A DNA stretch of 64,000 nt, taken from contig JAQXEH010000058.1 of assembly GCA_029250925.1 (NCBI GenBank), positions 1-64,000 on the forward strand, given 5' to 3'. The stretch's first letter is position 1, and each line of letters starts with the position of its first letter. Origin of the DNA: Hellea sp. Its GTDB lineage: Bacteria; Pseudomonadota; Alphaproteobacteria; Caulobacterales; Maricaulaceae. Under the pieces are notes generated by a model, which saw nothing but the letters and a program-made list of their open reading frames with translations, made no database searches and was not told the origin of the DNA. A program made the translations under genes and the position numbers. Positions 4,771 through 20,587 of this stretch are shown one piece after another.

Positions 4771-4834
4771 AAATATGAACTTACAGGTTAGATATATTAA
4801 AATCTAGATAGAATTAAAGCAAATCGGGCTAAAT

Positions 4835-6193
4835 TTAAACTCGTTGCCTTAAAGTTACTATTTCTTCTGCTAACGTTGGATGAACAGCACAGGTGTTATC
4901 AAAATCAGCCTTTGTTAAGCCTGCTTTTACACAAATACCTAAAATTTGAATAATTTCCGGACTATCATCGCCAATAATATGGACTCCAATAATTTTTCCC
5001 TTTGCTGATTCAGTTATTAATTTTATAAAACACTTATCTTCCTTTCCGCTAAGAATATTCTTCATCGGACGAAAGGTTGTTTCATAAACCATAATATTGT
5101 CACCATAGATCTCCCTGGCTTGAAGTTCATTCAAACCTACCACCCCAATGGGAGGACGTGTGAACACAGCACTTGCTATATTTCTGTGGTCATATTCTAC
5201 TGGCTTTGATCCATAAATAGTTTCGATAAATGCCTGTGCCTCTCGGATAGCCACTGGAGTTAAGTTTATTCGATTAGTAACGTCGCCAACTGCATATATA
5301 TTTTCAGCAGTAGTTTTAGAAAATTCATCTACAATAATGCTTCCTATGGTATCAGTTTGTACGCCTACCCTTTCGAGTCCTAACTTTGATGTGTAGGGCC
5401 GGCGTCCCGTCGCCATGAATACCAAGTCAGCGGTAATTATTGTACCATCATCAAAATGCGTATCGTAAGAATTACCATCTACATTAATTTTTATGGGTGA
5501 AATATTAAAGCGAACATCAATACCATTAGCTTTCTGATGAATACCTACATGAAGTCGAATATCTTCATCAAAACCATTTAGTAAATGTTTACCTCTATAT
5601 GCTTGGGTAGTTTTTACTCCAAGCCCAGAAAAAATACTAGCAAATTCCGAGGCTATATAACCACCACCAATTATTAAAATAGACGATGGTAATTTCTCAA
5701 GAACAAAGGCGTCATCAGAAATTATCGCATGTTCTACGCCTGATATATCAGGGGACCAAGGCCGACCACCAACAGCAATCAGTATTGTATCAGCGGAAAT
5801 TTTTTTCTTACTTGATGTTAATATCACTGTGTTTTTATCAATAAACTCTGCACGTTCATTATATACAACTGCACCATTTTTTTTCAAAATATTAGAATAG
5901 ATGTTTGATAAACGATCCACTTCTTTTTGAATGGAGTCTCTTAACTTTTTCCAGTTAAAATCTAAATTTTCATATGACCACCCATATTTTCTGCTTGATT
6001 CAATAGAAGAGCCATATTCTGCCCCGTAAACTAAATATTTTTTTGGTACACATCCTCTAACTACGCAGGTCCCTCCAGGTTTACTTTCTTCAGCTATAGC
6101 AACTTTTTTTCCCATTTGTGCAGCGAGCCTAGCCGCGCGTACACCACCAGACCCTGCACCTATTACAAAGAGATCATAATCAAATTTTGACAT
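4835..6193 (-). CDS. gor: Glutathione-disulfide reductase
   Basis: Reduces glutathione disulfide with NADPH. The 452-residue flavoprotein begins with the FAD dinucleotide motif VIGAGSGGVRAA, then the redox disulfide GTCVVRGCVPKK (C43, C48). The second nucleotide-binding motif GGGYIASEFASIF is followed by an Arg (AYRGKHL) of the kind that favours NADPH over NADH. The ATG motif (MATGRRP), the FAD motif YAVGDV and the C-terminal catalytic pair HPTLAEE (H438, E443) are all present. It follows rpiA by 14 bases, so glmU-rpiA-gor probably form one transcript. rpiA could help supply NADPH through the pentose phosphate pathway, but that link is only inferred. Confidence 0.94.
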   Translation of the reverse strand: MSKFDYDLFVIGAGSGGVRAARLAAQMGKKVAIAEESKPGGTCVVRGCVPKKYLVYGAEYGSSIESSRKYGWSYENLDFNWKKLRDSIQKEVDRLSNIYSNILKKNGAVVYNERAEFIDKNTVILTSSKKKISADTILIAVGGRPWSPDISGVEHAIISDDAFVLEKLPSSILIIGGGYIASEFASIFSGLGVKTTQAYRGKHLLNGFDEDIRLHVGIHQKANGIDVRFNISPIKINVDGNSYDTHFDDGTIITADLVFMATGRRPYTSKLGLERVGVQTDTIGSIIVDEFSKTTAENIYAVGDVTNRINLTPVAIREAQAFIETIYGSKPVEYDHRNIASAVFTRPPIGVVGLNELQAREIYGDNIMVYETTFRPMKNILSGKEDKCFIKLITESAKGKIIGVHIIGDDSPEIIQILGICVKAGLTKADFDNTCAVHPTLAEEIVTLRQRV

Positions 6194-6207
6194 TGATATT
6201 TTATTCC

Positions 6208-6906
6208 TTAGTTTTTTTCCATGACTTTGGCATGGTTTTCAAAGCCTACAATAATTATACTAGCTAGATCCACAAATAGGCCATGTTCCATTACACCAGG
6301 AATTTTTGATAATAGAAAAGCTGTTTCGGCAGGGTCTGGAATTTTTTTACAACTACAATCAAGTAAAAAGTGACCACCATCAGTTATTAACGGACCACCT
6401 CCATTTATTTTTTGTCTCAAGACAGTTACGGCACTTTCACAACCACTGTTAACTAATGCATTATATATTTTTTCAGCAGTGAGAGCTATTGCAAAGGGGT
6501 CTACTTCAATTGGCAATGGATATTCACCTAAAGTATCAACAATCTTACTATCATCTGCTATCACAATCATTTTATCAGAGGCATGAGCTATTATTTTTTC
6601 TCGAAGCAAACAAGCACCTCCGCCCTTGATAAGTGAAAACCCTGGGTCAACCTCATCAGCTCCATCAATTGTCAATTGAATACTACTTACTTTATCTGGT
6701 TCAATTAAAGGTACGCCATTTTCAATTGCTACAGCCTCCGTCCGTTTTGATGTTGGAACCCCTATAATTTCCATTCCATCGGCCACTAGCAATCCTAAAT
6801 GTTTTATAAATATCTCTGCCGTAGAACCCGATCCTAAGCCTAAGGTCATCCCATCTTCAATATACTCCAAGGCAGCAAGCGCAGCGTTTTCCTTAGTGAT
6901 TTGCAT
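6208..6906 (-). CDS. rpiA: Ribose-5-phosphate isomerase A
   Basis: Interconverts ribose-5-phosphate and ribulose-5-phosphate. The 232-residue protein carries the family motifs GLGSGSTAEIF (23-33), TIDGADEVD with the catalytic acidic residues, the phosphate loop KGGGACLLREK, and a C-terminal GVMEHGLFVDLA. The ATG overlaps the glmU stop by one base (TAATG), indicating coupled translation. All key residues are present and length is typical. Confidence 0.97.
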   Translation of the reverse strand: MQITKENAALAALEYIEDGMTLGLGSGSTAEIFIKHLGLLVADGMEIIGVPTSKRTEAVAIENGVPLIEPDKVSSIQLTIDGADEVDPGFSLIKGGGACLLREKIIAHASDKMIVIADDSKIVDTLGEYPLPIEVDPFAIALTAEKIYNALVNSGCESAVTVLRQKINGGGPLITDGGHFLLDCSCKKIPDPAETAFLLSKIPGVMEHGLFVDLASIIIVGFENHAKVMEKN

Positions 6907-8249
6907 TAGTTACTTTTCTTTCTTTTTATTTGGGCTTTCCGGAATCTATGCGCCCAATCTATTTTAATGACTTGCTTTGCCCTTGCTAAAGCTAGTGAAC
7001 CTGATGGTACATCGTCAGTTATTACACCTCCACTTCCTAAAAATGCCTGGTCACCAATTTTTATTGGCGCGACTAAAGATGAATTAGTACCAACAAAAAC
7101 ATTTTTTCCTATTATGGTTTTATACTTTTTGTAACCATCATAATTACATGTTATGGTTCCAGCACCTATATTACAGTTTTCACCAATTTCTGCATCACCT
7201 ATATATGACAAGTGGTTGACCTTAGTTCCCGCATGTATTTGAACATTCTTAGTTTCAACAAAATTTCCTACTTTGGTATTCTCACCCAAAACGGAACCTC
7301 GTCGAAGCCTTGCAAAGGGGCCTACTTTGGATCCTGTGGATATAAATGATCCTTCAATATCACAAAAAGGATAAATAATTGCTCCTGAGGAAATCTTAAC
7401 ATCGAGCCCAAATACAACGTTTGCAGCTATATCTGCATCTCTTTCAATAATTGTATCATAAGAGAAATAAACTGACGATGGGTCACGCAAAGTAACGCCT
7501 GCCTCCATTGCGTTATTTCTCATTCGAGCTTGGAAAGACTTTTCGGCCAAGGCTAGGTCTTTTCTGGAATTAACACCTAAAACCTCATGCTCAGGAGCCA
7601 TAACAAAAGTTGAGACCTTTCCCTCTTTAGACATAATTTTTATCATATCAGTAAGGTAATATTCACCCTTGGTATTCTCATTATCAATTTTTTTGAGGGT
7701 TTCGTGAAATTCCTCTGAAGAAAATGCTATAATGCCGCTATTACAGAGGCTTATTAAAAGTTGATCAGGGCGAGCCTCTTTAGCTTCAACAATCGCAGTT
7801 AACCTATCTCCCTCAGTTATTAACCTTCCATAACTATTCGGTTCACTTGTATTAAAACCTAAAACCACAGCTGAGGGTTTATCCTCGAGACTAGTAAAGA
7901 CTTTTTCTATTGTTTCTATTTGAATTAATGGAGTATCTGCATATAAAACCATAATATTACCAGAAAAATCTCCTAGTATTTCTTCAGCGGCCATAACAGC
8001 GTTTGCTGTTCCCAGTTGTTGTTGCTGAATTGCAATATCAAGACCAAGGTTTTTTGCAGCTTCTTTAACATCATCATTATCGCTGCCAACAACACATATT
8101 GCTCTTGAAACATTTGCTGCTCGAGCCAAAGATGCAGACCATGCAAGCATAGATTGACCTCCAACACAATGTAGGACCTTTGACTGCGAAGAGTTCATAC
8201 GTGATGATTTACCCGCAGCTAATATGATAGCAGCTCTTTTTTGGCCCAT
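6906..8249 (-). CDS. glmU: Bifunctional UDP-N-acetylglucosamine pyrophosphorylase / glucosamine-1-phosphate N-acetyltransferase
   Basis: Makes UDP-GlcNAc for peptidoglycan and lipid A. The N-terminal uridylyltransferase half has LAAGKSSRMNS (10-20), QQQLGTANAV, YADTPLI and the GEYYLTD segment. The C-terminal half is a left-handed beta-helix of hexapeptide repeats ending with HLSYIGDAEIGENCNIGAGT, NYDGYKK and FVGTNSSLVAP, the acetyl-CoA and acceptor sites. Total length 447 residues is normal. It is the first gene of glmU-rpiA-gor and is divergent from gph across 90 bases. Confidence 0.97.
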   Translation of the reverse strand: MGQKRAAIILAAGKSSRMNSSQSKVLHCVGGQSMLAWSASLARAANVSRAICVVGSDNDDVKEAAKNLGLDIAIQQQQLGTANAVMAAEEILGDFSGNIMVLYADTPLIQIETIEKVFTSLEDKPSAVVLGFNTSEPNSYGRLITEGDRLTAIVEAKEARPDQLLISLCNSGIIAFSSEEFHETLKKIDNENTKGEYYLTDMIKIMSKEGKVSTFVMAPEHEVLGVNSRKDLALAEKSFQARMRNNAMEAGVTLRDPSSVYFSYDTIIERDADIAANVVFGLDVKISSGAIIYPFCDIEGSFISTGSKVGPFARLRRGSVLGENTKVGNFVETKNVQIHAGTKVNHLSYIGDAEIGENCNIGAGTITCNYDGYKKYKTIIGKNVFVGTNSSLVAPIKIGDQAFLGSGGVITDDVPSGSLALARAKQVIKIDWAHRFRKAQIKRKKSN

Positions 8250-8339
8250 AAAGCACTCTCCCAGATGATTCGACGGCGTTGACTTATTTTAACATTAAAC
8301 CATGATAACTAAGAACGCGATTCTATTTATAGGAAATAT

Positions 8340-9014
8340 ATGAAAAATCTTCAAAATATTTCCATTTGCTTTGACCTTGATGGAACTCTTATAGATACCG
8401 CACCTGATCTTATCAGGGTTCTAAATGATGTTATAGCACTTGAAAACCTACCTAAAACAAACTTTAAAGAAGCACGCAAAAATGTTGGTTACGGTGCAAG
8501 GAAATTAATTATTGAGGCACTAAGGAGAGAGAAAAAAGAAGTAAATAGTTGCCGTTTGGATCAGTTACAGGAAATATTTATGCACTTGTATGCCAAGAAT
8601 ATGTGTTTATTGAGCAAGCCATACCCGGGAGTTAGAGGTGTTCTTAATAGTTTAAAACAAAAGGGAGCAGAACTATCAATATGCACTAATAAACCAGGCT
8701 ACTTAGCACGACCGTTGATTAAAGACTTATCGCTTTCAAAGTTTTTTATACGAATTGTTGGCTCAGATGACTTAATCAGGAATAAGCCATATCCAGATCA
8801 TATTTGGACCGCCGCCGGTCATAGGGGAACTAAAAAAAAGATTATAATGGTAGGTGATAGTTTACCAGATGTAATATCAGCTCATAAAGCAAGAGTTCCC
8901 TCTATAGTAATGCAATATGGCTATTCGACTATTCCCGCAAGAAGACTTGGAGGTGATTATGTATTACAACATTTTAAGGAGCTACCTTTAGCAATAAACA
9001 AATTAATATATTAA
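8340..9014 (+). CDS. gph: Phosphoglycolate phosphatase-like HAD hydrolase
   Basis: A 224-residue HAD hydrolase of the Gph/PGP subgroup. Motif I is FDLDGTLIDT with nucleophile D12 and acid D14, motif II lies in ICTNKPG, the lysine motif in RNKPYPDH and motif IV in MVGDSLPDVISA. The helical cap between motifs I and II is the usual size. Probable role is removal of 2-phosphoglycolate formed in DNA repair or oxygenation reactions; other small phosphates are possible. AGGAAA precedes the ATG, and a TTGACT (8279-8284) upstream could be its -35 box. It runs divergent from glmU and ends 4 bases from the end of the hydroxylase gene on the other strand. Confidence 0.85.
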   Translation: MKNLQNISICFDLDGTLIDTAPDLIRVLNDVIALENLPKTNFKEARKNVGYGARKLIIEALRREKKEVNSCRLDQLQEIFMHLYAKNMCLLSKPYPGVRGVLNSLKQKGAELSICTNKPGYLARPLIKDLSLSKFFIRIVGSDDLIRNKPYPDHIWTAAGHRGTKKKIIMVGDSLPDVISAHKARVPSIVMQYGYSTIPARRLGGDYVLQHFKELPLAINKLIY

Positions 9015-9018
9015 TTGC

Positions 9019-9828
9019 TTAAGATGCAGGATCACTCATTGCTTCAATATTTGCACCCGCTTTACGAATAGCATCCTCAAGTCTGTCTTCAGCTGACTTT
9101 AAGTTTTTCTTTGGGTCTTGGTAGAAAGCAGTGAATTTCATTACTTGAAGAAAAGTAGCATTTAGTAATCGACCCCAAAATTTCATAGGTCTATCAAAAT
9201 CAAATAAAAGAATAACTCGCTCTTGGTCTGTATCATTCCAAACTTCATGTTCATAGGTATCGTCAAATACAAAAATCTCGCCCTCTTTCCAAGGTGTAAT
9301 GGTATTATCAACACGAATACGACAATTCTCAAAGTCTGATGGAATTATCAATCCAATATGAGACCTCAGTATACCTTTTGTAACTCCACTGTGAGCCGGT
9401 ATATGATATCCTGGTGCTAAAATCGAAAACATAGCAGTCTGAAGGTTTGGAACAGCCTCAAGTAATTTTGATGTTTTTGGAGCAAGAGATGAATTTTTTG
9501 CTAATCTTTTGCCAAATCCAAACAAAACAAAAGTTTTCCAGTTATTTTCAGTTGCTAAGCGATATTGGTCTGGTGAAATATCTTGGAAACCAGGTATGAC
9601 CTCTTTGAATTTCATTACTTCCAATGCTTCCTCTTTAATATCCAGCCAATTGTCTGTGAAGCTTTTAAGGAATGGAAAATATTTATTGTCAATTTTCGGG
9701 CTATCTGGAACAATTGATTGGCTAGACTGAAAGCTTGCAATTTTTCTCACAAGCTTTTTACCATTCCTTTTTACAAAAGCCCTTCTGGGATTTTGTAAAT
9801 GTTTAGGCTTTTCAATTACTTTTTTCAT
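9019..9828 (-). CDS. Aspartyl/asparaginyl beta-hydroxylase-family dioxygenase (LpxO/OlsC-like)
   Basis: A 269-residue Fe(II)/2-oxoglutarate oxygenase of the AspH fold. Spacing of key residues matches the family: H146 (PAHSG) and H194 (TYEHEV) as iron ligands, H157 (RSHIGL) eleven residues after the first and R204 ten residues after the second for 2-oxoglutarate. Bacterial members hydroxylate lipid A acyl chains (LpxO) or ornithine lipids (OlsC). The N-terminus is strongly basic, with no membrane segment. It is the last gene of a seven-gene operon full of lipid/head-group enzymes (70 bases after the previous gene), which favours a lipid or head group as substrate over a protein. The true substrate is unknown. 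Confidence 0.8.
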   Translation of the reverse strand: MKKVIEKPKHLQNPRRAFVKRNGKKLVRKIASFQSSQSIVPDSPKIDNKYFPFLKSFTDNWLDIKEEALEVMKFKEVIPGFQDISPDQYRLATENNWKTFVLFGFGKRLAKNSSLAPKTSKLLEAVPNLQTAMFSILAPGYHIPAHSGVTKGILRSHIGLIIPSDFENCRIRVDNTITPWKEGEIFVFDDTYEHEVWNDTDQERVILLFDFDRPMKFWGRLLNATFLQVMKFTAFYQDPKKNLKSAEDRLEDAIRKAGANIEAMSDPAS

Positions 9829-9898
9829 AATTAATAATATCTACTATAATTTTATTTATTCATTTGGAATATATTAATCTCAATAATTGATTTAATAA

Positions 9899-10657
9899 CT
9901 ACTTAATAGCAGCAAGTCTTTTTCTTTGCATCTGACTTCCGCCAAATAAGTCCAAACAAATTTCATAATCTTCGGGCGTATCGAGTTCAGCCCAAGTTTC
10001 TCCCTTAATGTTGGTGGTATCAACTACCTTACCTGATAGCGCTAAACCATTTATTGCAGATAAAAACCAACTTTTAGTGCCCTCTTCCATTCTCATCAAA
10101 CGCTCTAACTCGTTCTTAAAAATACTTGGACCATTCTTCATAAAGCGCAACATACCAATAGATTCACCTTGAGTTTGTTGAGGTAGCAATGTTTTACCTA
10201 TCGCAGTAAGTTGATAACCACTCAATGAAACCTTCATGTCATCACCATCATAATGTTCCTTTTGGTCTATCGTTACTGATATATTTTTTGGTGGAGCGGC
10301 TAATACCTTTTTAAGTAATTCAAGGCTAAACAATGTGTCACCATTTATAAGTAGAAAGTCATTATTCATCTCTTGCCGTGCCATCCAACAAGAAGCTAAG
10401 TTATCTGCCAATTGATAGAAAGGGTTGTAAAGAGTACGTACTTTTTCTCCGTATCTAAGTGACAATACCTCTTCTTCAACTAGGTGAGAGTTAAATCCAG
10501 TTACAATCGTTATTTGTTCTATTCCTCGATTTAACAAAGTATCAATTTGCAGTGCAAGAACAGATGACAAACCAACAGGAAGCAAACATTTTGGCAAATC
10601 AGTTGTTAAAGGCAACAGCCTTGAACCACGCCCTGCAGAAAGTATTATAGCTTGCAT
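9899..10657 (-). CDS. LicC-like sugar/alcohol-phosphate nucleotidyltransferase
   Basis: A 252-residue NTP transferase. It shows the glycine-rich loop LSAGRGSRLLPLT (6-18), LPKCLLPVG with the conserved lysine (K23), a metal-binding INGDTLF (104-110) and a late TWAELDTPEDYE. Such enzymes activate phosphosugars or alcohol phosphates (phosphocholine, inositol phosphate) with CTP or UTP. I placed the start at the ATG 10655-10657; an in-frame TTG at 10690 would add 11 residues and overlap the upstream gene. Its position beside a CDP-alcohol phosphotransferase suggests it makes the CDP-alcohol donor. The activated compound cannot be read from sequence. Confidence 0.82.
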   Translation of the reverse strand: MQAIILSAGRGSRLLPLTTDLPKCLLPVGLSSVLALQIDTLLNRGIEQITIVTGFNSHLVEEEVLSLRYGEKVRTLYNPFYQLADNLASCWMARQEMNNDFLLINGDTLFSLELLKKVLAAPPKNISVTIDQKEHYDGDDMKVSLSGYQLTAIGKTLLPQQTQGESIGMLRFMKNGPSIFKNELERLMRMEEGTKSWFLSAINGLALSGKVVDTTNIKGETWAELDTPEDYEICLDLFGGSQMQRKRLAAIK

Positions 10658-10680
10658 TTCATTAAACCTATTATAAAAAT

Positions 10681-11349
10681 TTAGTTCCAATTAACCAATT
10701 CAAAATTTTCGTCAATAGCGACTTTAGCTAGCTTTCTATCTGGATTGACAGCAACCCCCGCATCACTAAACCTTAATATATCAATATCTGAAATACTATC
10801 AGTATACATTTTAATAAAGATTTCTTTCCTATTATATGCTAGAATATTATCTAATAGTTGCTTTACTCTTTCTAGTTTTTCGGAACCATAGCAATTTTTC
10901 GATGCAAATTCTTCACTTAAAAAGTTATTTGTCCATCTCATATTAGTCGCAACCCAATGATCAATTTTTAATAACTCTGCTACGGGCTTCACTATTAGGT
11001 CAACAGCTGCACTTGCTATAATTATTATGTCACCAGAAGATTTATGATGATTAAGTGCCTCAATAGCCCCTGGACGTAGACCATGAGAAACTTCCTTCTT
11101 TGCAAATTCATAAGCTAATCTTTTCATTTTAACTTTCGAATGGCCGACCATACTCCATTTCATCATACTCTGCTTAACAGATATTCTTGGGGTATAACCA
11201 GCTTTATAACGCCACTGCGCAAAACCTGCAGATAATATCAAAGGTAGCCATATCCAAGGCTTATACTTAACAGTATGAAGGACAAATCTCCCCCACGTAC
11301 CTTTCTTGGTCAATGTGTAGTCAAGATCAAATATTATAATGTTTTTCAT
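10681..11349 (-). CDS. HAD-superfamily phosphatase, PSPase-like (HAD-IB)
   Basis: 222 residues. Motif I IIFDLDYTLTKKGTW supplies D8 and D10, motif II is the SAA in IIIASAAVDL, and motif IV is YTDSISDIDILRFSD. The cap between residues 20 and 100 is the four-helix type seen in serine-phosphatase-like and CicA/HAD-IB enzymes. Its ATG touches the stop of the fusion gene upstream (1-base overlap, TAATG). In an operon with CDP-alcohol chemistry it may dephosphorylate a phospholipid or head-group phosphate, as PgpP-like HADs do for phosphatidylglycerol-phosphate. That role is inferred from neighbours. Confidence 0.8.
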   Translation of the reverse strand: MKNIIIFDLDYTLTKKGTWGRFVLHTVKYKPWIWLPLILSAGFAQWRYKAGYTPRISVKQSMMKWSMVGHSKVKMKRLAYEFAKKEVSHGLRPGAIEALNHHKSSGDIIIIASAAVDLIVKPVAELLKIDHWVATNMRWTNNFLSEEFASKNCYGSEKLERVKQLLDNILAYNRKEIFIKMYTDSISDIDILRFSDAGVAVNPDRKLAKVAIDENFELVNWN

Positions 11350-13847
11350 TATCCACTCATCCAGCTTTGTGCTGGCTTTGGCAAAAACATACTATAAAAT
11401 AATACAATTAGATTAAACAATATACATACCCAAGTCCAAATTCCAACTGCATAGAAACCCCATTTACCTGCATCAGGAAACAATGGTAAAAAACATATTC
11501 CTATCATGAACACAAACATATTTGGATTTCTGCGCGCAGTAATAAACCGCATGAAAGAATTAATAGGTTTCCATACATGAATGTGAAAACCATGCTTAGC
11601 TATAAAAATACCTTCGATAATTCTATCAATGACGTATCCGGCTAAAATAGCCACCAAGGTTAAACTCATGAGATCAGATTGAAGATTTTGCCAAGTAAAT
11701 ACACCGCCTAAACCAGCAAACCACGCCCAATACCAAAACGGTGGATGAATTAAATCTATGCCATGATCATAAATATTACCCCACCATGAATAAGTCATAG
11801 TAGTTCTTGCTAACTTGCCATCTACAGTATCCAAAAATGTCATGAGCCAGCCCGTCAGAAAACCTAAAGCCCACTCACCTACCCAAAAATAATACAAAGC
11901 AGCAAACATTAATACAAGGCCTATAGTAGTCACCATATTTGGTGAAAATCTTAATGCAGCAAACAAACGTGTGACATGAAATGCAGGGATAGGCCAAATC
12001 CACTTAGTTACAAAATCAGTTATGCCCTTATAGGAGCTCGCAAATTGTCGGCGCATAATTTCAGATGGTGGTGTTTTGTTAAGATCAAGGGCATAAGGTT
12101 GTTCTGTTTTTCTCAGCGCCTTGTTATAACCATTATCTAAATCCTCTGGTTTATACCCATCAATATTAGTTCCTATTAAAACATCAGAATTTTTTCCAAT
12201 TATTTTGAGTGCTGTCTCTTTTTCTATCCCATTAGTACCTATAATTTTATCACCAGAAATTAATGCCATTTTATTTCCCTTAGCAAAAGCTTTAGCAAGA
12301 CCTGACGATAAAACCCAATTTAATTGTAAATAAATAATCCCTGAATTAATATCTGATGCAGCCTTATTCATTGCACGCCGTTGCCATTTCACTAAAGGCA
12401 TACCCCACAACTTTAATTCGGAAACTCCTATGAAGTTTATCGATTTATCAACACGCACATCTAATTTTGATTTTTTACCCTCAATGACACTTCTTAATGT
12501 ACCTTGAGTTAAATAAACTAAGATTCCAACAGATGTAATATTGGCAAGAATTGCTGCCCAACCAGGGGCCATTTTTCCGATTAAGAAACTCAGAAATATA
12601 AAAGCGGCAATATAGACTACGACTCCCGTTCCGCGGGCGTAAATAGCTCTTTCAGGTTTATCTGCCGCATATAAAACTGGATATAATGGAGCAGCTATAC
12701 CTGTCACAGCCGCTGCAAAAATTAGGAGTGAGGCAAGTGGTGCAGCCATCGCATAGTCAACAGAGAAGACCATACTTAATAAATTTGGTCCTCCAACTTT
12801 TACTACAAATGCGATCACGAGCCCAAAACTCAATAATGATATCGCTGTCTTTTTAACTAATCCCCATATTTTTTCAGCTTCGCCGAGGCTTATCATTTTA
12901 GCAAGCTCAGGATAAATTACCTGGTCAAGGAGTTTAAAGCCTTCGGAGAGTAATTTGGCCGCTTCCTCAGCAATTCTATAAATAGCCACCCATGTAGAAC
13001 CAAACACTCCCATCACCATTAATGCCGGTAAATGTGTCGTTGAAGCAGATAGTGTAGAGTCAATATTGGATTTAATCATAAATTTCCATAATCCACTTCT
13101 TGCTTTCAAAAGCGGGGACTTTGTACGTATAACTAACATTAATAAACCACGAGACCTTAATTCTAATAGAGCCATTGCAGGCAGAAAGAAGTAGGCAGCC
13201 ATTGAACCTATGTACCAAGCAAGAAGAAATCCTGTGAAGCCTGCATCATTATTTACTGCTATTATAACACCTAAAAATCGCGTGATTGGCATAACAAGGC
13301 CGTGAATTGCCAATATATGAAATTTATCAAACAAACGAAAGACACCGACCCCAACTCCCCTTTGTCTTAATAAAATCAAAGAACAGTAAAAAACTGCAAA
13401 ATATTTAAGGTTATCCATCACATAAGGTAAGTCGGTGTTAAGTAAGCCAGGTATAGAGCTTGATAAGCTAACAACACCAAAAAAAATACTAATGGATATA
13501 AGGAAACCAAAAACTGCAGAAATAGCATCAATTTTTAATCCAAACTTTAATAACGCGGATATTCTGGTAGCATCATTATTTTTGAGGTCATCTGTGCCAT
13601 ATCTAATGAGCGACTGCCATGACTGGAAAGCAGTCACTTCAGAAAAGAAAAGCATGTAAGCATGTAAAAAAAGTATTATACCCAATTCAGAGGCGCTTAA
13701 ACTTTTCGTTGCCAGCAATATACTTCCCAAACCTAAAAAAACAGCTGTCGACTTTGATGCTACCATCAAACCTGTATTTGCAGCTATGCGCCTTCCCACG
13801 GTATGTTTGGATTGAACATTTAAATTAGGACGCATATTTTGGTCCAT
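11349..13847 (-). CDS. Fusion: polysaccharide-type flippase + degenerate nucleotidyltransferase-like linker + CDP-alcohol phosphotransferase
   Basis: An 832-residue protein of three parts. Residues about 20-450 form a polytopic MOP/Wzx-type flippase (some 12-14 hydrophobic segments, opening with VGRRIAANTGLMVASKSTA). Residues about 465-620 are soluble and resemble the region that precedes the transferase in IPCT/DIPPS-type proteins. Residues about 625-832 are a CDP-alcohol phosphotransferase with a perfect catalytic motif: D673, D676, G677, A680, R681, G690, D694, D698 (DTVDGKLAR, eight residues, then GNIYDHGID). The chain would couple transfer of an alcohol phosphate to a lipid acceptor with transbilayer movement. 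The ATG at 13847 has a GGTGGAAG site; an ATG at 13835 is the alternative. It overlaps the upstream nucleotidyltransferase gene by 23 bases. No frameshift is visible at the junctions. Confidence 0.85.
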   Translation of the reverse strand: MDQNMRPNLNVQSKHTVGRRIAANTGLMVASKSTAVFLGLGSILLATKSLSASELGIILFLHAYMLFFSEVTAFQSWQSLIRYGTDDLKNNDATRISALLKFGLKIDAISAVFGFLISISIFFGVVSLSSSIPGLLNTDLPYVMDNLKYFAVFYCSLILLRQRGVGVGVFRLFDKFHILAIHGLVMPITRFLGVIIAVNNDAGFTGFLLAWYIGSMAAYFFLPAMALLELRSRGLLMLVIRTKSPLLKARSGLWKFMIKSNIDSTLSASTTHLPALMVMGVFGSTWVAIYRIAEEAAKLLSEGFKLLDQVIYPELAKMISLGEAEKIWGLVKKTAISLLSFGLVIAFVVKVGGPNLLSMVFSVDYAMAAPLASLLIFAAAVTGIAAPLYPVLYAADKPERAIYARGTGVVVYIAAFIFLSFLIGKMAPGWAAILANITSVGILVYLTQGTLRSVIEGKKSKLDVRVDKSINFIGVSELKLWGMPLVKWQRRAMNKAASDINSGIIYLQLNWVLSSGLAKAFAKGNKMALISGDKIIGTNGIEKETALKIIGKNSDVLIGTNIDGYKPEDLDNGYNKALRKTEQPYALDLNKTPPSEIMRRQFASSYKGITDFVTKWIWPIPAFHVTRLFAALRFSPNMVTTIGLVLMFAALYYFWVGEWALGFLTGWLMTFLDTVDGKLARTTMTYSWWGNIYDHGIDLIHPPFWYWAWFAGLGGVFTWQNLQSDLMSLTLVAILAGYVIDRIIEGIFIAKHGFHIHVWKPINSFMRFITARRNPNMFVFMIGICFLPLFPDAGKWGFYAVGIWTWVCILFNLIVLFYSMFLPKPAQSWMSG

Positions 13848-14580
13848 TTAGTATTTCTTCCACCAAGTCTTTATCAGCTGGCTTATCGACATCAATAGCC
13901 GCCTCAGCTATTGGAATGATGACTGCTTTAGCCGATAAATTCAGTTTGATAGAAATATGGTTAAAAGCTTCTTTTAATTTTAAACTTCCTAATAAATATT
14001 TTATTAACAAGAACCATGAGATATTTATCGCCAATTTAATTGGGTTTTTCCTAAGGTGTTGTACTTTTTCCCAATACTGAAAAATTGCCAACCCTTTAGG
14101 GTTAGCAATATAAAACAAATTGCAACCAGAAACAGATATATCTGAAAAATTCCAATATGTTCTTTTTACGGTAGGATAGGAGTTTTGTATTACAGATTTT
14201 TCTGCAAATGCCATAGAAAAATCTGCTCCATTTCGTTGAGCCTTTTCAACAAAAATCTTTAACATGTCTGTAGATAAAAGTGGGTGATCACAGGTTGTTA
14301 AAAGACTTGGGAATTCATTTCTTTTCGTCAACGCTATCAGCGCACTTCCTGCCGGCCCGTCATCACTAGGTAGCTCCTCTAAGCATTTATGGTGACCCGC
14401 ATCAAATCCAGAAACACCAAATGGTTTGTTTAAATTTGATTTTAATAGTGTTTTAATTACAAAATCTATCATAGGTGTACCATTGATTGGAACAAGAGCT
14501 TTATGACTGACACCCGCATTTAAACAAAGAGAGTCTTTCACCCCTTTTCTTTGCCCAGCTAAGATAATAACATTAACCAT
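13825..14580 (-). CDS. NTP-transferase (MobA/nucleotidyltransferase-like)
   Basis: A 251-residue nucleotidyltransferase of the GT-A fold. It has IILAGQRKG at the N-terminus, HKALVPINGTPMIDF (25-39) with the conserved lysine, and TTCDHPLLS, where the Asp should bind metal. The glycine loop is shorter than in GlmU-type enzymes, closer to the MobA/CofC style. The C-terminal part has no recognisable second domain. It overlaps both neighbours (1 base with the GNAT gene, 23 with the fusion gene). It probably makes a nucleotide-activated precursor for the same pathway as the second nucleotidyltransferase at 9899; the substrate is unknown. Confidence 0.75.
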   Translation of the reverse strand: MVNVIILAGQRKGVKDSLCLNAGVSHKALVPINGTPMIDFVIKTLLKSNLNKPFGVSGFDAGHHKCLEELPSDDGPAGSALIALTKRNEFPSLLTTCDHPLLSTDMLKIFVEKAQRNGADFSMAFAEKSVIQNSYPTVKRTYWNFSDISVSGCNLFYIANPKGLAIFQYWEKVQHLRKNPIKLAINISWFLLIKYLLGSLKLKEAFNHISIKLNLSAKAVIIPIAEAAIDVDKPADKDLVEEILNGPKYAS

Positions 14581-15731
14581 TATATTTTCTTTTGGTACAT
14601 TCTATATTTTTTGTAAGGAACGGCACTTGCTTGTTCACATATTGATATCATCCCTGAATTATTCTCCAGTATCCAACTTAATTCACAGTGACTAAAGCCT
14701 TTTTTCCTACCCGCCTCAAAAACAGTCTCGCAAAGTTTGGCTACCAATGATAAACCTATTCTGGTATTATGAAATTCTTTACGCAGTCCCATTAAGGGAA
14801 TTCTTGCCTGTTTAACCCCTCTTATCTTTAAACGCCAAAATAATTTAACCCAGCCAAATGGTAGAATTGAACCATTTAAACCCTCTATAGCTTCGTTTAC
14901 ATCAGGTATCATCCAAATATAAGCTATGGGTTTCCCCTGATACTCCCCGATCCACAAGCCCTCTTTGAACATGATGGGCCTAATTTCGTTGGCCATGTGT
15001 TCTATTTTCGTGTCATCAAATGGCACAAAACCCCAATTCTCACTCCATGCATCGTTGAAAATATCCATTACAATATTTAATTCATCTCTAAATTTACCCG
15101 ATCGCATAGATCGAACTTTAATATCACTGTTGCGGTCTGCTGACTTTACCATCATTTGGGTTATTTTCGGCCTTGGGTAGCCAACCGATAATTCAGCTTG
15201 ATAAGCAAACATATCTATTGCCTTTGTATAGCCAAAGCCTTCAACAATTTCCTTATATTCCTCCTTACCATGTAGCATCATAACAACAGGCGGGGTATTA
15301 AAACCTGAAATTAAAAGGCCACACTCTTCATTTACACTCCAATTTGCAGGACCTATAATTTGCTCTACACCTCGGCCCTTTAACCAATTCTCAGCGCTTT
15401 CTAACAATAGCTGTCCAAGTAAATTATCTGCGAGACAATCAAAAAAACCAAAAAAACCATCATTTTTTTTAGAATGTTTATTATGGTCCTCATTGATAAA
15501 AGCAGCAATGCGACCGACATCCTCACCGTTTTTGGTTGCTATAAAAAGAACTCTGTTATCAAAACTGGGCGCACTAGGATTACTAATTGGATTTATCTGA
15601 GCCTTACGTTCAAATTTTAGTTGAGGCCTCCAGGAGCTTTCATCTTTATAAATTTTATCAGGTAAGGCTAAAAACCTAATAATCTGCTCTTTATTACTCA
15701 CAATTTCTATTTTTAACGAGGATAAAGGCAC
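14580..15731 (-). CDS. Double-GNAT-like acyltransferase, possible bacterial ceramide-synthase-type enzyme
   Basis: 383 residues without signal or membrane segments. The first half has DVGRIAAFINEDHN, FFGFFDC, IGPANWSVNEECGLLISGF and NTPPVVMM; the second half repeats a GNAT-like pattern (MFKEGLWIGEYQGKPIAYIW, then FHNTRIGLSLVAKLCE). This widespread family is often labelled GNAT acetyltransferase or 'dATP pyrophosphohydrolase'. As I recall, the bacterial ceramide synthase of Caulobacter is a GNAT-type protein of about this size. The neighbourhood of lipid enzymes would suit an N- or O-acyltransferase, but no serine palmitoyltransferase gene is in the window, so a ceramide role is only a hypothesis. 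It shares one base with the next gene. Confidence 0.7.
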   Translation of the reverse strand: MPLSSLKIEIVSNKEQIIRFLALPDKIYKDESSWRPQLKFERKAQINPISNPSAPSFDNRVLFIATKNGEDVGRIAAFINEDHNKHSKKNDGFFGFFDCLADNLLGQLLLESAENWLKGRGVEQIIGPANWSVNEECGLLISGFNTPPVVMMLHGKEEYKEIVEGFGYTKAIDMFAYQAELSVGYPRPKITQMMVKSADRNSDIKVRSMRSGKFRDELNIVMDIFNDAWSENWGFVPFDDTKIEHMANEIRPIMFKEGLWIGEYQGKPIAYIWMIPDVNEAIEGLNGSILPFGWVKLFWRLKIRGVKQARIPLMGLRKEFHNTRIGLSLVAKLCETVFEAGRKKGFSHCELSWILENNSGMISICEQASAVPYKKYRMYQKKI

Positions 15732-15787
15732 TTAGGCTCCGTAACAATAAGGATGCATCACTTAAACTAATAATATAATTCAAGCAA

Positions 15788-16357
15788 TTAGGGTTTTACT
15801 AAATTTATTACAACCTCAATACCCTCTTGCGGTACATAGAAACTTGCTTCAGTCCACCTTGGTAGTCGTAAGCTTTCTATTACCGGGTTATTCGACACCC
15901 CATAGGGTTCTTTGGGTTTCAAATTCCAAGCTTTTTTTAATTTTCTATTTCCATCCTTGTCATGATAACTAACTAAAGCATATTCTCCTGGCGCTGGTAC
16001 ATTTATACACAAGCTAATTCTATCACTATCTGCAGGAACACGAATTCTTCTTAACTTTCCCGATTTTTTCATAAAATTCTTTTTACCGAAGAGCTCAACC
16101 TTAACTATTCCAGACTTTGATAAATTGGTAATTAATGTTCTAATTTGAGTTGATTTATCTACGCAAGAGTCTGCTTCATCAAATTTGTATAGCTCTAAAT
16201 TATTCTCTAACCCTATTTCAGATATCTTACCCCGGGGACCCACCTCAGATCCTTTCAAGTATGATGTATCATTAGCATAACTATTATAAGAAAAGGCTAA
16301 AAAATATAAAACAAGCGACGAACTAAGAAAAAAATTGTTAATGAAGTTTGCATTCAC
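15788..16357 (-). CDS. DUF2141-family exported protein
   Basis: 189 residues with an N-terminal hydrophobic segment (about residues 8-28) ending in SYANDT, a plausible signal peptide. The C-terminal half matches the DUF2141 pattern: VPAPGEYALVSYHDKDGN, then the stretch KPKEPYGVSNN. The N-terminal 60 residues are variable. Function of the family is unknown; members are periplasmic beta-rich proteins. It is first in the minus-strand lipid/head-group operon, 56 bases before the GNAT gene, and diverges from lptF over 101 bases. Confidence 0.8.
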   Translation of the reverse strand: MNANFINNFFLSSSLVLYFLAFSYNSYANDTSYLKGSEVGPRGKISEIGLENNLELYKFDEADSCVDKSTQIRTLITNLSKSGIVKVELFGKKNFMKKSGKLRRIRVPADSDRISLCINVPAPGEYALVSYHDKDGNRKLKKAWNLKPKEPYGVSNNPVIESLRLPRWTEASFYVPQEGIEVVINLVKP

Positions 16358-16458
16358 GATTAAGCCTCTATAATGCGACCATTAATGTATTGGCCGTTTA
16401 TATAATTATATGATTTATAGCCATATGAAGTAAAGGTTTTTTAGTAGTTAAATAATAT
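16358..16458. promoter_or_regulatory. Divergent promoter region between the lipid/head-group operon and lptFG
   Basis: The 101-base AT-rich gap must drive both operons. On the plus strand TATAAT occurs at 16369-16374, with TTTGCA at 16347-16352 sixteen bases upstream. A second AT block containing ATATAATTATAT (a palindrome, around 16401-16412) offers TATAAT on both strands. The exact boxes are uncertain, but shared control of LPS export and the surface-lipid operon is plausible from this layout. Confidence 0.35.
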
Positions 16459-17667
16459 ATGGGAAAACTTAATGCATATCTAATGAAGAAGGCCTCCGTC
16501 ACAATCGGGGGGCTTATTATATTTGCTTGCTGCGTACTTTTGATGGAACGCTTGTTGCGAATATTTCAGGTAGTTGCCAATTCATCTAACCCGGCGAGTG
16601 ACACCTCACAAATGATTATTAATTTATTACCCTATTATCTAGGGATAGCCGTACCTATGGCACTTCTTTTAGGAGTCATAATAACTGTGGATCGGTTCAG
16701 TAAATCAAGTGAGCTTACAGCAGCTCTCGGGGCGGGGGTTTCATTGTTTCAGATGACAAAGCCTTTCCTGATACTAGGTTTATTTTTAGCAATAATAACA
16801 TTATTTATCGAAGGTTACATGCAACCCGTTGGGAGGTATAATTACCGACAAGTAGAACACTCCGTGAAACAACAATCATTTACAGCCGCCCTAAGAGAGG
16901 GCACATTTACTACTGTTGGCAATCGAACTTTTTTTGCAGGTACCGATTTACCCGGTGCTGCAATTGGCCCAATATTTATTTATGAAAAGAATAAGGACAA
17001 TAATGAACAGAACCAATTGAGACTTACCACGGCAAAACAAGGAAAACTAATTGTAAGGGAAAAAACACAAGAACCCGTATTGCAGCTTTCAAAGGGACAA
17101 ATTTATCAAGTTTTAGAAGAAAAACAGCTGGATGGAGATCTTAGTTTTGAAAGTAGCTCCATAGCTGGGGTAGCCAGTGAAATAAACTTCAGAATACGTG
17201 GTGATGATGAGAGGGAAATGACCTCATTAGAGCTATTAGGCAATAGAAAAGGTGATTACACAGAATTCAAGGTAACCCAAAACGTAAATAATGCAGCCTT
17301 ACACCTAAGATTATCCAAATCTATCTTATTATTAATACTACCATTTATTGCAGTTCCATTTGGCTTAAACTATGGACGCAACCCGTCTTCAGCAGGCATT
17401 GCCATAGGTGTTATATTTTTAATTTCACTCCAAAAAACTCTTGAATTTGGCCAAAGCCTTGGTGCGGCTGGGAAAATTCCTCCATGGACAGGGATATGGC
17501 CTACAATAGTTATTGTAGCATTATTTGCTTTTTGGCTATTTCGAAAGAGTGCATTTAAAATGGGGCAACCCCCTCTTACCGCAGTTTCACATTACATCAC
17601 TTACATGAAAGAAAAAGTAAGAGATAAAGTTGATGCTATTTTCTCAGCAAAAGAAAAGCTGAATTAA
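16459..17667 (+). CDS. lptF: LPS export system permease LptF
   Basis: 402 residues of the YjgP/YjgQ family. Predicted layout is three N-terminal membrane helices, a periplasmic beta-jellyroll of about 150 residues (with SFTAALREGTFT), and three C-terminal helices (ILLLILPFIAVPFG, then two more). With LptG and the ATPase LptB it pulls lipopolysaccharide out of the inner membrane. Its stop overlaps the ATG of lptG by one base (TAATG). The order lptF then lptG is standard. Assignment of F versus G rests on that order and the sequence layout. Confidence 0.92.
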   Translation: MGKLNAYLMKKASVTIGGLIIFACCVLLMERLLRIFQVVANSSNPASDTSQMIINLLPYYLGIAVPMALLLGVIITVDRFSKSSELTAALGAGVSLFQMTKPFLILGLFLAIITLFIEGYMQPVGRYNYRQVEHSVKQQSFTAALREGTFTTVGNRTFFAGTDLPGAAIGPIFIYEKNKDNNEQNQLRLTTAKQGKLIVREKTQEPVLQLSKGQIYQVLEEKQLDGDLSFESSSIAGVASEINFRIRGDDEREMTSLELLGNRKGDYTEFKVTQNVNNAALHLRLSKSILLLILPFIAVPFGLNYGRNPSSAGIAIGVIFLISLQKTLEFGQSLGAAGKIPPWTGIWPTIVIVALFAFWLFRKSAFKMGQPPLTAVSHYITYMKEKVRDKVDAIFSAKEKLN

Positions 17668-18749
17668 TGATTAAACTTCTCTCTTATTTATCAAAAACTT
17701 TCTTCGCCATCTGGGTCACAACTGTATTTGGTTTTTTGGTTTTAATTGGACTTCTAGATAGTCTTGCAAACGGCAGTGATATTCTTGCTGGTGGTGGAGG
17801 GTTCATTGATACTTTCAAATATATGGGCTTAAGAGCACCAGTTATTTTTGACAGAATATTTGTTTTTACAATAGTAGTAAGCGTTCTGCTCACTTATGTT
17901 AAACTGATTAGACAACATGAATTAGTTGCGTTACTGGGTTTTGGGATATCAGTTCCAAGACAATTATTATTGATGACGCCGGTCGTACTATTTACTGCTA
18001 CTTCTTCTATTACTATAATTGACCTTAGCATCGCTCCAGCAGTCCGTTCTCTTCAAGCATGGGGAATTGGAGAATACAAAGTGAAAAATATAACTCCTGA
18101 AAACCCCCTTTGGCTGGAAGATAATGGGAGGATTATAAAAGCTAATAAACGCTTAGACTACAACACCCTTGGTGATATTGAATTTTATAAAAGATCAGAA
18201 ATTGGCTCAGTAGACGAAATTTTATGGGCTGAAAAAGCAACTTACGAAGGAAAAAATTGGACTCTAGAGGGAATAGAACTGCTTACCACTAAAGAAGCAA
18301 ACGGTGAACCACGAAAAGCTGAGCAAGACATAAACCCACGACTTTGGGTTACGCGGCAAAATCCCAAGTCAATAGCTAGATTAGCTGCCGAACCTAGAGA
18401 TTTATCAATATCAGAAATGCGTAATTTTAGCAAAGAAGGCAACTCCGGCTCTAAACCAAGGTTTGCTTATACATTCTGGCATGCACATAGATTAACACGG
18501 CCTTTAGCTGCTTGGGTTTTACTTCTTGTTGCTGTACCTCTCATGCAAAGTACAGGAAGGCAAGATACTGGCGATAAAACATTAATAATTGGGCTTGGAG
18601 GAGGGTTTCTCTTTTTAATAATTGATGGTGCTATGGCGACATTTGCAGCATCAGGCGGAATGGCCGTGTCAACTGCTATTTGCTTACCAATAGCTGTATT
18701 TGGAATTTTAGGAACGTGGCTTTGCCTGAAAACGGAAAGCCTCAAATAG
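17667..18749 (+). CDS. lptG: LPS export system permease LptG
   Basis: 360 residues with the same six-helix plus jellyroll layout as LptF. The N-terminus IKLLSYLSKTFFAIWV, the cytosolic coupling loop RQHELVALLGFGISV between helices 2 and 3, and the C-terminal helices after FWHAHRLTRPLAAWVLLL are typical. It forms the LptFG heterodimer of the LPS transporter. The kinase gene starts directly after its stop (TAG then ATG), so two lipid genes follow in the same transcript. Confidence 0.92.
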   Translation: MIKLLSYLSKTFFAIWVTTVFGFLVLIGLLDSLANGSDILAGGGGFIDTFKYMGLRAPVIFDRIFVFTIVVSVLLTYVKLIRQHELVALLGFGISVPRQLLLMTPVVLFTATSSITIIDLSIAPAVRSLQAWGIGEYKVKNITPENPLWLEDNGRIIKANKRLDYNTLGDIEFYKRSEIGSVDEILWAEKATYEGKNWTLEGIELLTTKEANGEPRKAEQDINPRLWVTRQNPKSIARLAAEPRDLSISEMRNFSKEGNSGSKPRFAYTFWHAHRLTRPLAAWVLLLVAVPLMQSTGRQDTGDKTLIIGLGGGFLFLIIDGAMATFAASGGMAVSTAICLPIAVFGILGTWLCLKTESLK

Positions 18750-19673
18750 ATGGTTTCTGATAACTCGAAACTATATTTTATTTATAACCCTTATAGTGCG
18801 GGGGTTTTGAAAAGAGGTTCCTTTCTAAAAAAAAATTACCAAAGATTTAATGCGCAACTACATAGTTTAGAGAAATTCTCCGATGTAAAATTAATTGTCT
18901 GTAAAGCACTAAAAAATAATGCCTCTCACATTTGCATAGAAGGAGGGGATGGCACAATTCATGGTGTCATGACAGAGTTTTTAAAACAATCACCAAATTT
19001 AACTCTACCTTCTTTCATGTTGATACCCGGTGGAAATACAAACCAAATATCAAGAAATATTGGTATCAAATCAACCTCAATAAAAGCTTTAGAAAGGTCT
19101 TTTAAAATCGGCAGCACTATAAATTTTCCTATGTTATCAATTACCGATGATAAAAATAATAGCTATTATGGATTCTTATTTTCCAGCGGAGCACTGCCAC
19201 AGATGACGGAATATACAAAAAAAAGATTTCACCAGCGCGGAATTGGGGGGTCAGCAGCCGTACTGGGCGGTATGATAAAAGGGCTTAAGAAGAAGAACAA
19301 AATCGTACAACCAACTAAGATAAAAATTGATATTGAAACGCTAAAAAACCATACAATAGATAGTCTACATTTTGGCTCAATAATTACTACTTTACCGAGC
19401 TTAATTCTTAAGCTTGATCCATTTTGGGGTAAGGAAGAATTTCCGTTACGCTTTACTTATGCCTCCAGTAATTATAAAAGATTTTTCAAAAATGTGATTA
19501 GCTTGTGGCTAGGGGAAAAAAATAAATCCCGAAAAAAATATGGATTATTAAGCTGGAACGCCATTAAAATTAAATTCTATTATACCGGGCCATGCATGCT
19601 CGACGGAGAATTACTTAAATTGTCAGATAGATTTATTATATCATCAACAAAACCAATAAAGTTTATCAGATGA
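18750..19673 (+). CDS. Diacylglycerol-kinase-family lipid kinase (DAG or ceramide kinase-like)
   Basis: 307 residues with the DAGK catalytic fold: YNPYSAG near the N-terminus, the nucleotide loop IEGGDGTIHGVM (GGDGT at 65-69), IPGGNTNQISRNIG (92-105) and the C-terminal LDGELL that closes the lipid site. It should phosphorylate a lipid hydroxyl, either diacylglycerol to phosphatidate or ceramide to ceramide-1-phosphate; bacterial ceramide kinases share this fold. It starts one base after lptG ends and overlaps the Tam41-like gene by four bases, so all four genes are cotranscribed. Confidence 0.82.
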   Translation: MVSDNSKLYFIYNPYSAGVLKRGSFLKKNYQRFNAQLHSLEKFSDVKLIVCKALKNNASHICIEGGDGTIHGVMTEFLKQSPNLTLPSFMLIPGGNTNQISRNIGIKSTSIKALERSFKIGSTINFPMLSITDDKNNSYYGFLFSSGALPQMTEYTKKRFHQRGIGGSAAVLGGMIKGLKKKNKIVQPTKIKIDIETLKNHTIDSLHFGSIITTLPSLILKLDPFWGKEEFPLRFTYASSNYKRFFKNVISLWLGEKNKSRKKYGLLSWNAIKIKFYYTGPCMLDGELLKLSDRFIISSTKPIKFIR

Positions 19674-20587
19674 ACGAAACAATTATTGATATATTATCTG
19701 AGGAAAACATCTTAACTAATCCCCGTGTTTCAAAAATATGCGACACGATAGTCAAACGGCATTTAGGAAGAGTAAAAGCTGTAATATACTATGGTTCATC
19801 CTTGAGAGATTTAGACAAACCGGGCAAAATGCTCGATTTCTACGTACTTGTTGATAGTTATAGAAAGACACATAAAAACCTTGTCAGAGCTACTCTTAAT
19901 TACTTATTACCGCCTGCTGTTTACTACTATGAAAAATTAGATAAAAATAATATATTAAATACATGTAAGTACTCAATTATCTCGTTATCCGAGTTTGAGA
20001 AACTAAGTGGAGAAAAATCTTTATTATCCATGATATGGGGTCGATTTTGCCAGCCGTGCAGTATCCTTTATTCGGAAAGCTCAGCTGTAACTGAGCGTAT
20101 TCTCATTGCCCGAGAGAATTCAGTGAGACATATGGCCTCCCAAATAACCCCATTGCTTTCAGGCCCTATAAAATCCTCTCAATTCTGGGCAAAAGGGTTT
20201 TATGAAAGTTACAAAACAGAACTTCGCCCAGAAAGCTCGGAAAAAAGAGCGATAGAAATTGTTGAACGTTACGAAAATCGTTATAGCAGGATAACCACTG
20301 TTCTGTTTGGTAAACCTAATGAAGATGGTTATTATGTAATCCCACAAGAAACTAAAATTTACGCAAAAACTAAATGGTTTATCAGAAGACTAATAGGAAA
20401 GCCAATGACTGCAATTCGTGTTATAAATAGTGCGGCAACATTTGATGGGGGATTAGACTATATTTTAATGAAACTGAGAAATCATTCTGGTGTAACCATC
20501 TTACCAACTTCTTTCGAAAAAAGACATCCTGTAATATGCTCACCCATAATGGGTTGGAAACTATGGAGAAAAGGGGCATTCAAGTAA
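19670..20587 (+). CDS. Tam41-like nucleotidyltransferase (putative CDP-diacylglycerol-type synthase)
   Basis: A 305-residue soluble protein. The segment YYGSSLRDLDKPGKMLDF (40-57) followed by YVLVD gives the GS...D nucleotidyltransferase core in the spacing used by Tam41/Mmp37, the mitochondrial phosphatidate cytidylyltransferase; the second core acidic residue is replaced as in that family. The C-terminal region is conserved-looking (FDGGLDYILMKLRNHSG, then EKRHPVICSP). The upstream gene, overlapping by ATGA, is a lipid kinase, whose product (a lipid phosphate) would be the natural substrate for CTP-dependent activation. Homology is judged by eye from short motifs, so it needs a profile search. 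Confidence 0.6.
   Translation: MNETIIDILSEENILTNPRVSKICDTIVKRHLGRVKAVIYYGSSLRDLDKPGKMLDFYVLVDSYRKTHKNLVRATLNYLLPPAVYYYEKLDKNNILNTCKYSIISLSEFEKLSGEKSLLSMIWGRFCQPCSILYSESSAVTERILIARENSVRHMASQITPLLSGPIKSSQFWAKGFYESYKTELRPESSEKRAIEIVERYENRYSRITTVLFGKPNEDGYYVIPQETKIYAKTKWFIRRLIGKPMTAIRVINSAATFDGGLDYILMKLRNHSGVTILPTSFEKRHPVICSPIMGWKLWRKGAFK

Follow-up and report, generated by a model that had tools for sequence, protein, structure and literature searches.

Comparative analysis of a locus at positions 9019 to 20587 of a 64,000-nucleotide stretch of the Hellea sp. genome (contig JAQXEH010000058.1, hereafter the window) identified it, from its genes and their neighbourhoods, as an orthologue of the phosphosphingolipid cluster CC_1168-CC_1152 of Caulobacter crescentus, which makes ceramide (di)phosphoglycerate, CPG2 (PMC11324152, PMC12275187), and not as a generic lipid or lipopolysaccharide (LPS) locus. 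Most of this pathway has already been described in Caulobacter (PMC11324152, PMC12275187), and the locus as such is not new; what is new is the fusion of a MOP-superfamily flippase with the CpgA orthologue, the putative last head-group enzyme, in one open reading frame (ORF), and the link of an OlsC/LpxO-like hydroxylase to sphingolipid genes. Taken as a whole, the locus is likely to produce an anionic phosphosphingolipid of the ceramide (di)phosphoglycerate type and to export it.

Orthology to the Caulobacter phosphosphingolipid cluster

Ceramide-base genes pointed to this cluster. In relatives of the window genome, the genes next after the Tam41-like gene of the locus often encode a serine-palmitoyltransferase-like enzyme, an acyl carrier protein (ACP), a CerR-like reductase and an acyl-ACP synthetase. 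These are known in 'Rhodobacteria' as ceramide-base genes, and the window's own genome carries an aasR-cerR-acpR-spt operon on another contig (C66). The Spt encoded there scores 542 bits against the curated cut-off of 500 of NF047599, and the assignment of cerR, acpR and aasR rests on their similarity to linked relatives.

When named genomes were scanned with the GNAT protein family, uncultured Hellea ranked closest; the matches also included a record of Caulobacter sp. Root343 (L117), in which the genes run aasR> cerR> acpR> spt> Tam41-like< DAGK< CDP-OH_P< metallophosphoesterase> DUF2141< HIT> lptF> lptG> GNAT> MobA-like> LicC-like<. The same order has been published for CC_1165 to CC_1152 (PMC11324152), which identifies the GNAT gene as CC_1154, the MobA-like gene as CC_1153, and the LicC-like, CDP-OH_P, DAGK and Tam41-like genes as CpgD, CpgA, CpgB and CpgC, respectively. 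The window orthologues of cpgA, cpgB, cpgC, cpgD and CC_1153 all match the positional genes of Root343 (5/5), CpgB at just 24% identity, and another record (L052, genome G054) keeps the Caulobacter order with a flippase gene immediately ahead of aasR, where CC_1166 stands in Caulobacter.

The sequence-only reading of the window had described eleven genes in two divergent operons, and ORF positions, domain searches and fold matches bear out this content and layout. All eleven ORFs are present where first placed, seven in a minus-strand operon (9019-16357), overlapping or tightly packed, and four in a plus-strand operon (16459-20587), parted by a 101-base gap (16358-16458). Domain searches upheld the families AspH, NTP_transferase, HAD-IB, CDP-OH_P, MobA-like NTP_transf_3, GNAT, DUF2141, DAGK_cat and LptF; the flippase half of the fusion and the Tam41-like last plus-strand gene were identified by fold instead of sequence. 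The features are as follows (CDP and CTP, cytidine di- and triphosphate).

9019..9828, minus strand: AspH-fold hydroxylase, proposed sphingolipid N-acyl hydroxylase (PF05118, E 7e-51; closest curated family OlsC)
9899..10690, minus strand: CpgD orthologue, CTP:phosphoglycerate cytidylyltransferase (CDP-glycerate synthase), 49% identical to the Root343 gene in CpgD position
10681..11349, minus strand: HAD-IB phosphatase, proposed head-group phosphatase (TIGR01490, 110.7 bits against a cut-off of 98.3; DxDxT motif)
11349..12482, minus strand: C-terminal part of the fusion, residues 456-832, a degenerate nucleotidyltransferase-like domain plus CDP-alcohol phosphotransferase, CpgA orthologue
12483..13847, minus strand: N-terminal part of the fusion, residues 1-455, MOP-superfamily flippase corresponding to CC_1166 (fold match; L052 orthologue upstream of aasR)
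13825..14580, minus strand: MobA/CofC-like nucleotidyltransferase, CC_1153 orthologue (PF12804, E 1e-11; 33% identity to the Caulobacter gene directly after cerS)
14580..15731, minus strand: bacterial ceramide synthase (bCerS/CerS), CC_1154 orthologue, the 'double GNAT' (37% identity over 383 residues to the Root343 gene in CC_1154 position, E 2e-85)
15788..16357, minus strand: DUF2141 protein with a hydrophobic N-terminus, probably periplasmic (PF09912, E 7e-21)
16459..17667, plus strand: LptF2, sphingolipid-associated LptF paralogue (best match Caulobacter LptF2)
17667..18749, plus strand: LptG2 (Caulobacter LptG2, E 1e-19, versus the genome's own LptG on contig C37, E 1e-4)
18750..19673, plus strand: ceramide kinase CpgB orthologue (PF00781, E 1e-11; GGDGT motif; 24% identity; position of CC_1160 between CpgA and CpgC)
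19670..20587, plus strand: CpgC orthologue, Tam41-type cytidylyltransferase, proposed CDP-ceramide synthase (Tam41 fold; 28% identity to the Caulobacter gene next to spt)

The window locus and the Caulobacter cluster thus share cerS, CC_1153, cpgD, cpgA, cpgB, cpgC, lptF2, lptG2, the DUF2141 gene and the flippase, and both genomes have spt, acpR, cerR and aasR, although in Hellea these lie on another contig. The window locus differs in the fusion of the flippase and CpgA into one ORF, in having a HAD-IB phosphatase where Caulobacter has the metallophosphoesterase CC_1158, in its OlsC-like hydroxylase and in its gene order. Neighbourhoods of the fusion gene, compared in 20 stretches of related genomes, show the same gene set repeatedly, with the order also kept in the genus and family, which argues that the locus is not a chance arrangement; the neighbours are thus conserved together. 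The sequence-only reading was right in outline in proposing a locus for a surface lipid, an unusual phospholipid that is phosphorylated, activated, decorated, hydroxylated and probably flipped on its way to the outer membrane, but it missed the sphingolipid nature of that lipid.

The product of the 'double GNAT' gene had been taken for a decorating acyltransferase, and is instead the ceramide synthase that builds the backbone; its GNAT assignment stands, though the domain search gave one significant GNAT match alone. Ceramide synthase genes are linked to spt, acpR, cerR and aasR in many records, and the backbone steps have been established in Caulobacter (PMC11324152, PMC11087976, PMC12275187). 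Neither the GNAT nor the DAGK protein found a decisive match among PDB sequences. The ceramide synthase gene also stands beside spt-acpR-cerR-aasR in records labelled Escherichia, Erwinia, Pantoea and Tatumella (L089, L093, L094, L096, L099, L106). Recurrent in the sphingolipid operon of relatives and absent from the window are genes for a GMC-type oxidoreductase (L038:12129-13703) and a cyclopropane-fatty-acid synthase-like methyltransferase (L037:12039-13253). Farther downstream, the window encodes a 1117-residue autotransporter-type protein with a PF03797 beta domain (25823-29176, plus strand) that is unrelated to the locus.

A flippase fused to CpgA

The CpgA half of the fusion is 39% identical to the Root343 gene in CC_1159 position and carries PF01066 (CDP-OH_P), with the motif D-x2-DG-x2-AR-x8-G-x3-D-x3-D invariant in 10 of 10 sequences. 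The nucleotidyltransferase-like part ahead of this domain is without the catalytic GxG..R..K motif, a degeneracy that fits the supply of CDP-glycerate by a separate CpgD. A Pfam search with the flippase half gave no match. In an AlphaFold model of the fusion (mean predicted local distance difference test, pLDDT, 84; predicted template modelling score, pTM, 0.59, which does not fix the relative placement of the halves), residues 7-458 adopt the MOP transporter fold (MATE/MurJ/WzxE), with Z scores of 20-29 over 380-440 residues. The top rows of the VIA-align comparison cover the MOP half alone; the CpgA half is placed by Foldseek matches to the archaeal IPCT-DIPPS 4mnd (E 3e-5) and to PIP synthase. 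Like 4mnd, the CpgA half joins a nucleotidyltransferase-like domain to a CDP-alcohol phosphotransferase, but it differs in the loss of GxG..R..K, in the presence of a separate CpgD in the locus and in the flippase fused ahead of it. This resemblance, and weak matches to IPCT/DIPPS and PIP synthase models, would suit an inositol-phosphate lipid locus, the LicC-like and CDP-alcohol enzymes resembling both the IPCT/DIPPS pair and inositol-lipid enzymes of bacteria. All of the profile scores are, however, far under their cut-offs and the nucleotidyltransferase is a CpgD orthologue with its glycerate contacts conserved, making an inositol lipid quite improbable, although no search aimed at an inositol-phosphate synthase was made.

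Flippase and CpgA form one ORF in the window genome and in all members of the genus with sufficient data, and outside the genus the fusion recurs in three further genera of the family (G028; G027; G061 and G121). They are separate, unfused neighbours in G014, and in G010 (L044, position 10334) they share a frame with TAA-ATG alone between them. In other families the two genes lie on the same strand, approximately 70-550 bases apart or farther, and among 337 genomes of the class no fused ORF was found outside the window's family.

Gene fusions of this kind suggest, as a general principle, that both parts act on one molecule in succession, and CDP-alcohol transferases work at the cytoplasmic face, so that the simplest reading is that the head group is completed and the lipid then flipped. 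The in-frame fusion thus points to flipping of the lipid during or after completion of its head group. We tentatively propose, short of an even chance, that the fused MOP protein is the missing inner-membrane sphingolipid flippase, to which the lipid would be handed over directly within one protein, with flipping as or after the last head-group step and any periplasmic reduction by CerR later.

Co-inheritance across the order

Strong matches were counted in 219 genomes of the order, 69 of which contain ceramide synthase. CpgA, present in 35 genomes, was accompanied in every case by ceramide synthase (35/35) and by the flippase (35/35); 53 of the 54 genomes with the flippase have ceramide synthase, and all 34 with CpgD have CpgA. 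These counts point to co-inheritance of ceramide synthase, flippase, CpgA and CpgD. In one genome (G220), a second, separate cluster of flippase, CpgA and CpgD stands on another contig while the main locus is without CpgA (C22:17676-21108, C40:30748-36788), as though the head-group module were able to move in one piece.

Several points weigh against these interpretations. The co-occurrence counts ignore shared ancestry, although losses are scattered over several families. Sixteen genomes of the order with ceramide synthase are without this flippase, and G010 has CpgA without CpgD. Genomes without CpgA keep the flippase, which is therefore not specific to CPG2. The lipid product in this organism is predicted from its genes, and the CpgA reaction is putative in Caulobacter too. 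In addition, CerR has been placed in the periplasm (PMC11087976), a poor fit with cytoplasmic head-group addition to fully reduced ceramide; the two can be reconciled if reduction comes last, an order that the fusion favours without showing it.

Retention of the flippase without CpgA and a periplasmic CerR (PMC11087976) both favour a reading in which the same locus uses the fused MOP protein to flip an earlier intermediate, such as oxidised ceramide for CerR, or another cargo, and the fusion reflects only the loss of a stop codon between two adjacent genes; one base separates the fused from the split state in G010, where the frame is the same across TAA-ATG. Yet in several families the flippase and CpgA genes stand side by side on one strand, the flippase occurs in every CpgA genome, and the fusion has been retained across a genus and three other genera of the family. 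We therefore regard flipping of an earlier intermediate as rather unlikely.

Head-group enzymes

The 'LicC' gene keeps the family first assigned to it but probably not the TTG start, since most relatives begin at an ATG 11 codons inside; this ATG, at 10657, is the probable true start of CpgD. The contacts of CpgD with CTP and glycerate have been published (PMC13228409). In the window protein R16, K26, N90, N110 and D112 are identical to the published contacts and T93 is replaced by S, while contacts M147, K161, S170 and W201 correspond, once an offset of one residue in Root343 is allowed for, to the invariant window residues M152, K166, S177 and W208. No CpgD structures were found in the PDB copy searched.

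Caulobacter CpgB is a proven ceramide kinase (PMC12275187), and the activities of CpgB and CpgD and the CPG and CPG2 products have been shown in Caulobacter (PMC11324152, PMC11087976, PMC12275187). For CpgC, Pfam and NCBIfam searches returned nothing, Pfam searches with 12 relatives gave nothing useful, and comparing a profile of the family with PDB sequences produced nothing beyond chance matches. An AlphaFold model of CpgC matched Tam41 (7ecd) with a Z score of 15.8 over 226 residues, Tam41 structures in general scoring 14-16 and the best unrelated structure 9.8. CpgC therefore shares the fold of the mitochondrial and bacterial CDP-diacylglycerol synthase, but it is without a Pfam-level sequence match and sits in sphingolipid loci, which makes ceramide-1-phosphate its probable substrate. 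The fold supports, without proving, a role of CpgC as the activator of ceramide, as suggested in PMC11324152.

These same generic families (DAGK_cat, Tam41 fold, CDP-OH_P) could also be read as a diacylglycerol kinase, a Tam41-type CDP-diacylglycerol synthase and a CDP-alcohol phosphotransferase of a glycerophospholipid head-group locus. However, the genome has a canonical CdsA on contig C35, so the Tam41-like gene is not the sole candidate for CDP-diacylglycerol synthase, and a second CDP-alcohol phosphotransferase on C37; moreover, the locus holds a ceramide synthase tied to spt, acpR, cerR and aasR, and the Caulobacter orthologue of its kinase is the proven ceramide kinase (PMC12275187). 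A diacylglycerol-based product is accordingly very improbable.

Throughout the family the locus includes the HAD-IB gene, which is missing from its Caulobacter counterpart, where the metallophosphoesterase stands. A CC_1158 counterpart is absent from the window locus, to which the examination was confined, and published orthologue clusters are likewise without it (PMC11324152). The HAD-IB phosphatase is possibly a stand-in for CC_1158; its role, like the product of CpgC and the other head-group chemistry beyond CpgB and CpgD, is predicted.

Across relatives a core of ceramide synthase, CC_1153-like protein, flippase, HAD-IB phosphatase, hydroxylase, CpgB, CpgC and LptF2/LptG2 is kept while head-group modules vary. 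Where CpgA and CpgD are missing, G017 has a CDP-glycerol glycerophosphotransferase-like gene (L049:7562-8770) and G033 has genes for an ATP-grasp protein and a second MobA-like nucleotidyltransferase (L046:11219-13035), replacements that possibly provide alternative sphingolipid head groups.

An AspH-type hydroxylase in the sphingolipid locus

OlsC is an ornithine-lipid acyl 2-hydroxylase. The window hydroxylase belongs to the same AspH-type family as OlsC and LpxO, with moderate profile scores (212 bits for OlsC, NF052565, and 135 bits for LpxO), but it does not reach the OlsC cut-off of 450 or the equivalog cut-off of LpxO, and it is co-inherited with ceramide synthase. Among genomes of the order, 19 have close homologues (E<1e-70), and every one of these also has ceramide synthase (19/19; p 4e-11, kinship ignored), and homologues also lie beside cerS loci in L101 and L133. 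These associations suggest that the OlsC/LpxO-like enzyme is probably a sphingolipid acyl hydroxylase. In Caulobacter the hydroxylation has been attributed to CC_0202, an unrelated enzyme of the DesA type (PMC11324152).

LptF2, LptG2 and the DUF2141 protein

A second lptFG pair is located on contig C37 in an lptF-lptG-surA-pdxA-ksgA arrangement, the usual setting of lptFG. The window LptF matches Caulobacter LptF2 at E 2e-46 versus E 3e-6 for the genome's own C37 LptF, and LptG shows a similar, weaker pattern; the window pair is thus LptF2/LptG2 and not the LPS pair, so the earlier idea that the lipid travels together with LPS finds no support. LptF2/LptG2 have been proposed to export sphingolipids, not LPS (PMC11324152), and by analogy the cargo of the window pair would be a sphingolipid. 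An LPS assembly or export locus, as the LptF and LptG families and the LpxO/OlsC-like hydroxylase might suggest, is the least probable of the alternatives, given the C37 pair, the far closer match of the window LptF to Caulobacter LptF2 and the finding of close hydroxylase homologues only with ceramide synthase. A diacylglycerol-based lipid, an inositol lipid and an LPS locus were each considered and rejected on the evidence given above.

The lptD gene usually stands between lptG and surA. At the C37 locus (L143, G000:C37:64001-76106, 4785-10197) lptG is directly followed by surA-pdxA-ksgA and lptD is absent, the rest of the genome not having been searched for it. The DUF2141 protein is conserved in sphingolipid loci, including that of Caulobacter, with a homologue between CpgA and lptF2 in L117 and L052.

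Proposed pathway and significance

Gene identities, the fusion and co-inheritance are supported by sequence and comparison, and they are consistent with the following pathway, in which the flipping step and its timing are predicted. AasR, AcpR and Spt, encoded on contig C66, would make the sphingoid base, to which bCerS would add an N-acyl chain that the OlsC-like enzyme may hydroxylate. CpgB would phosphorylate the ceramide and the Tam41-type CpgC would activate the product as CDP-ceramide, while the CofC-like enzyme and the HAD-IB phosphatase may help to build the first phosphoglycerate. CpgD would make CDP-glycerate, from which the CpgA half of the fusion would transfer phosphoglycerate at the cytoplasmic face. 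The finished lipid would then pass to the MOP flippase of the same polypeptide and on to the outer leaflet of the inner membrane, from where LptF2/LptG2 would carry it towards the outer membrane.

In Caulobacter, these sphingolipids can partly replace outer-membrane LPS and affect polymyxin sensitivity, which makes their route to the surface worth knowing. According to a 2024 paper on the Caulobacter enzymes, bacterial sphingolipids had no identified flippase or transporter (PMC11087976), and CC_1166 has so far merely been suggested as a potential flippase (PMC11324152). That nature has joined the last head-group enzyme to a MOP flippase, and that the two are closely co-inherited, is independent evidence for a flippase role, and the order 'head group first, flip second' can now be tested directly. 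In addition, the locus contributes a candidate for an acyl hydroxylase unlike that proposed in Caulobacter.

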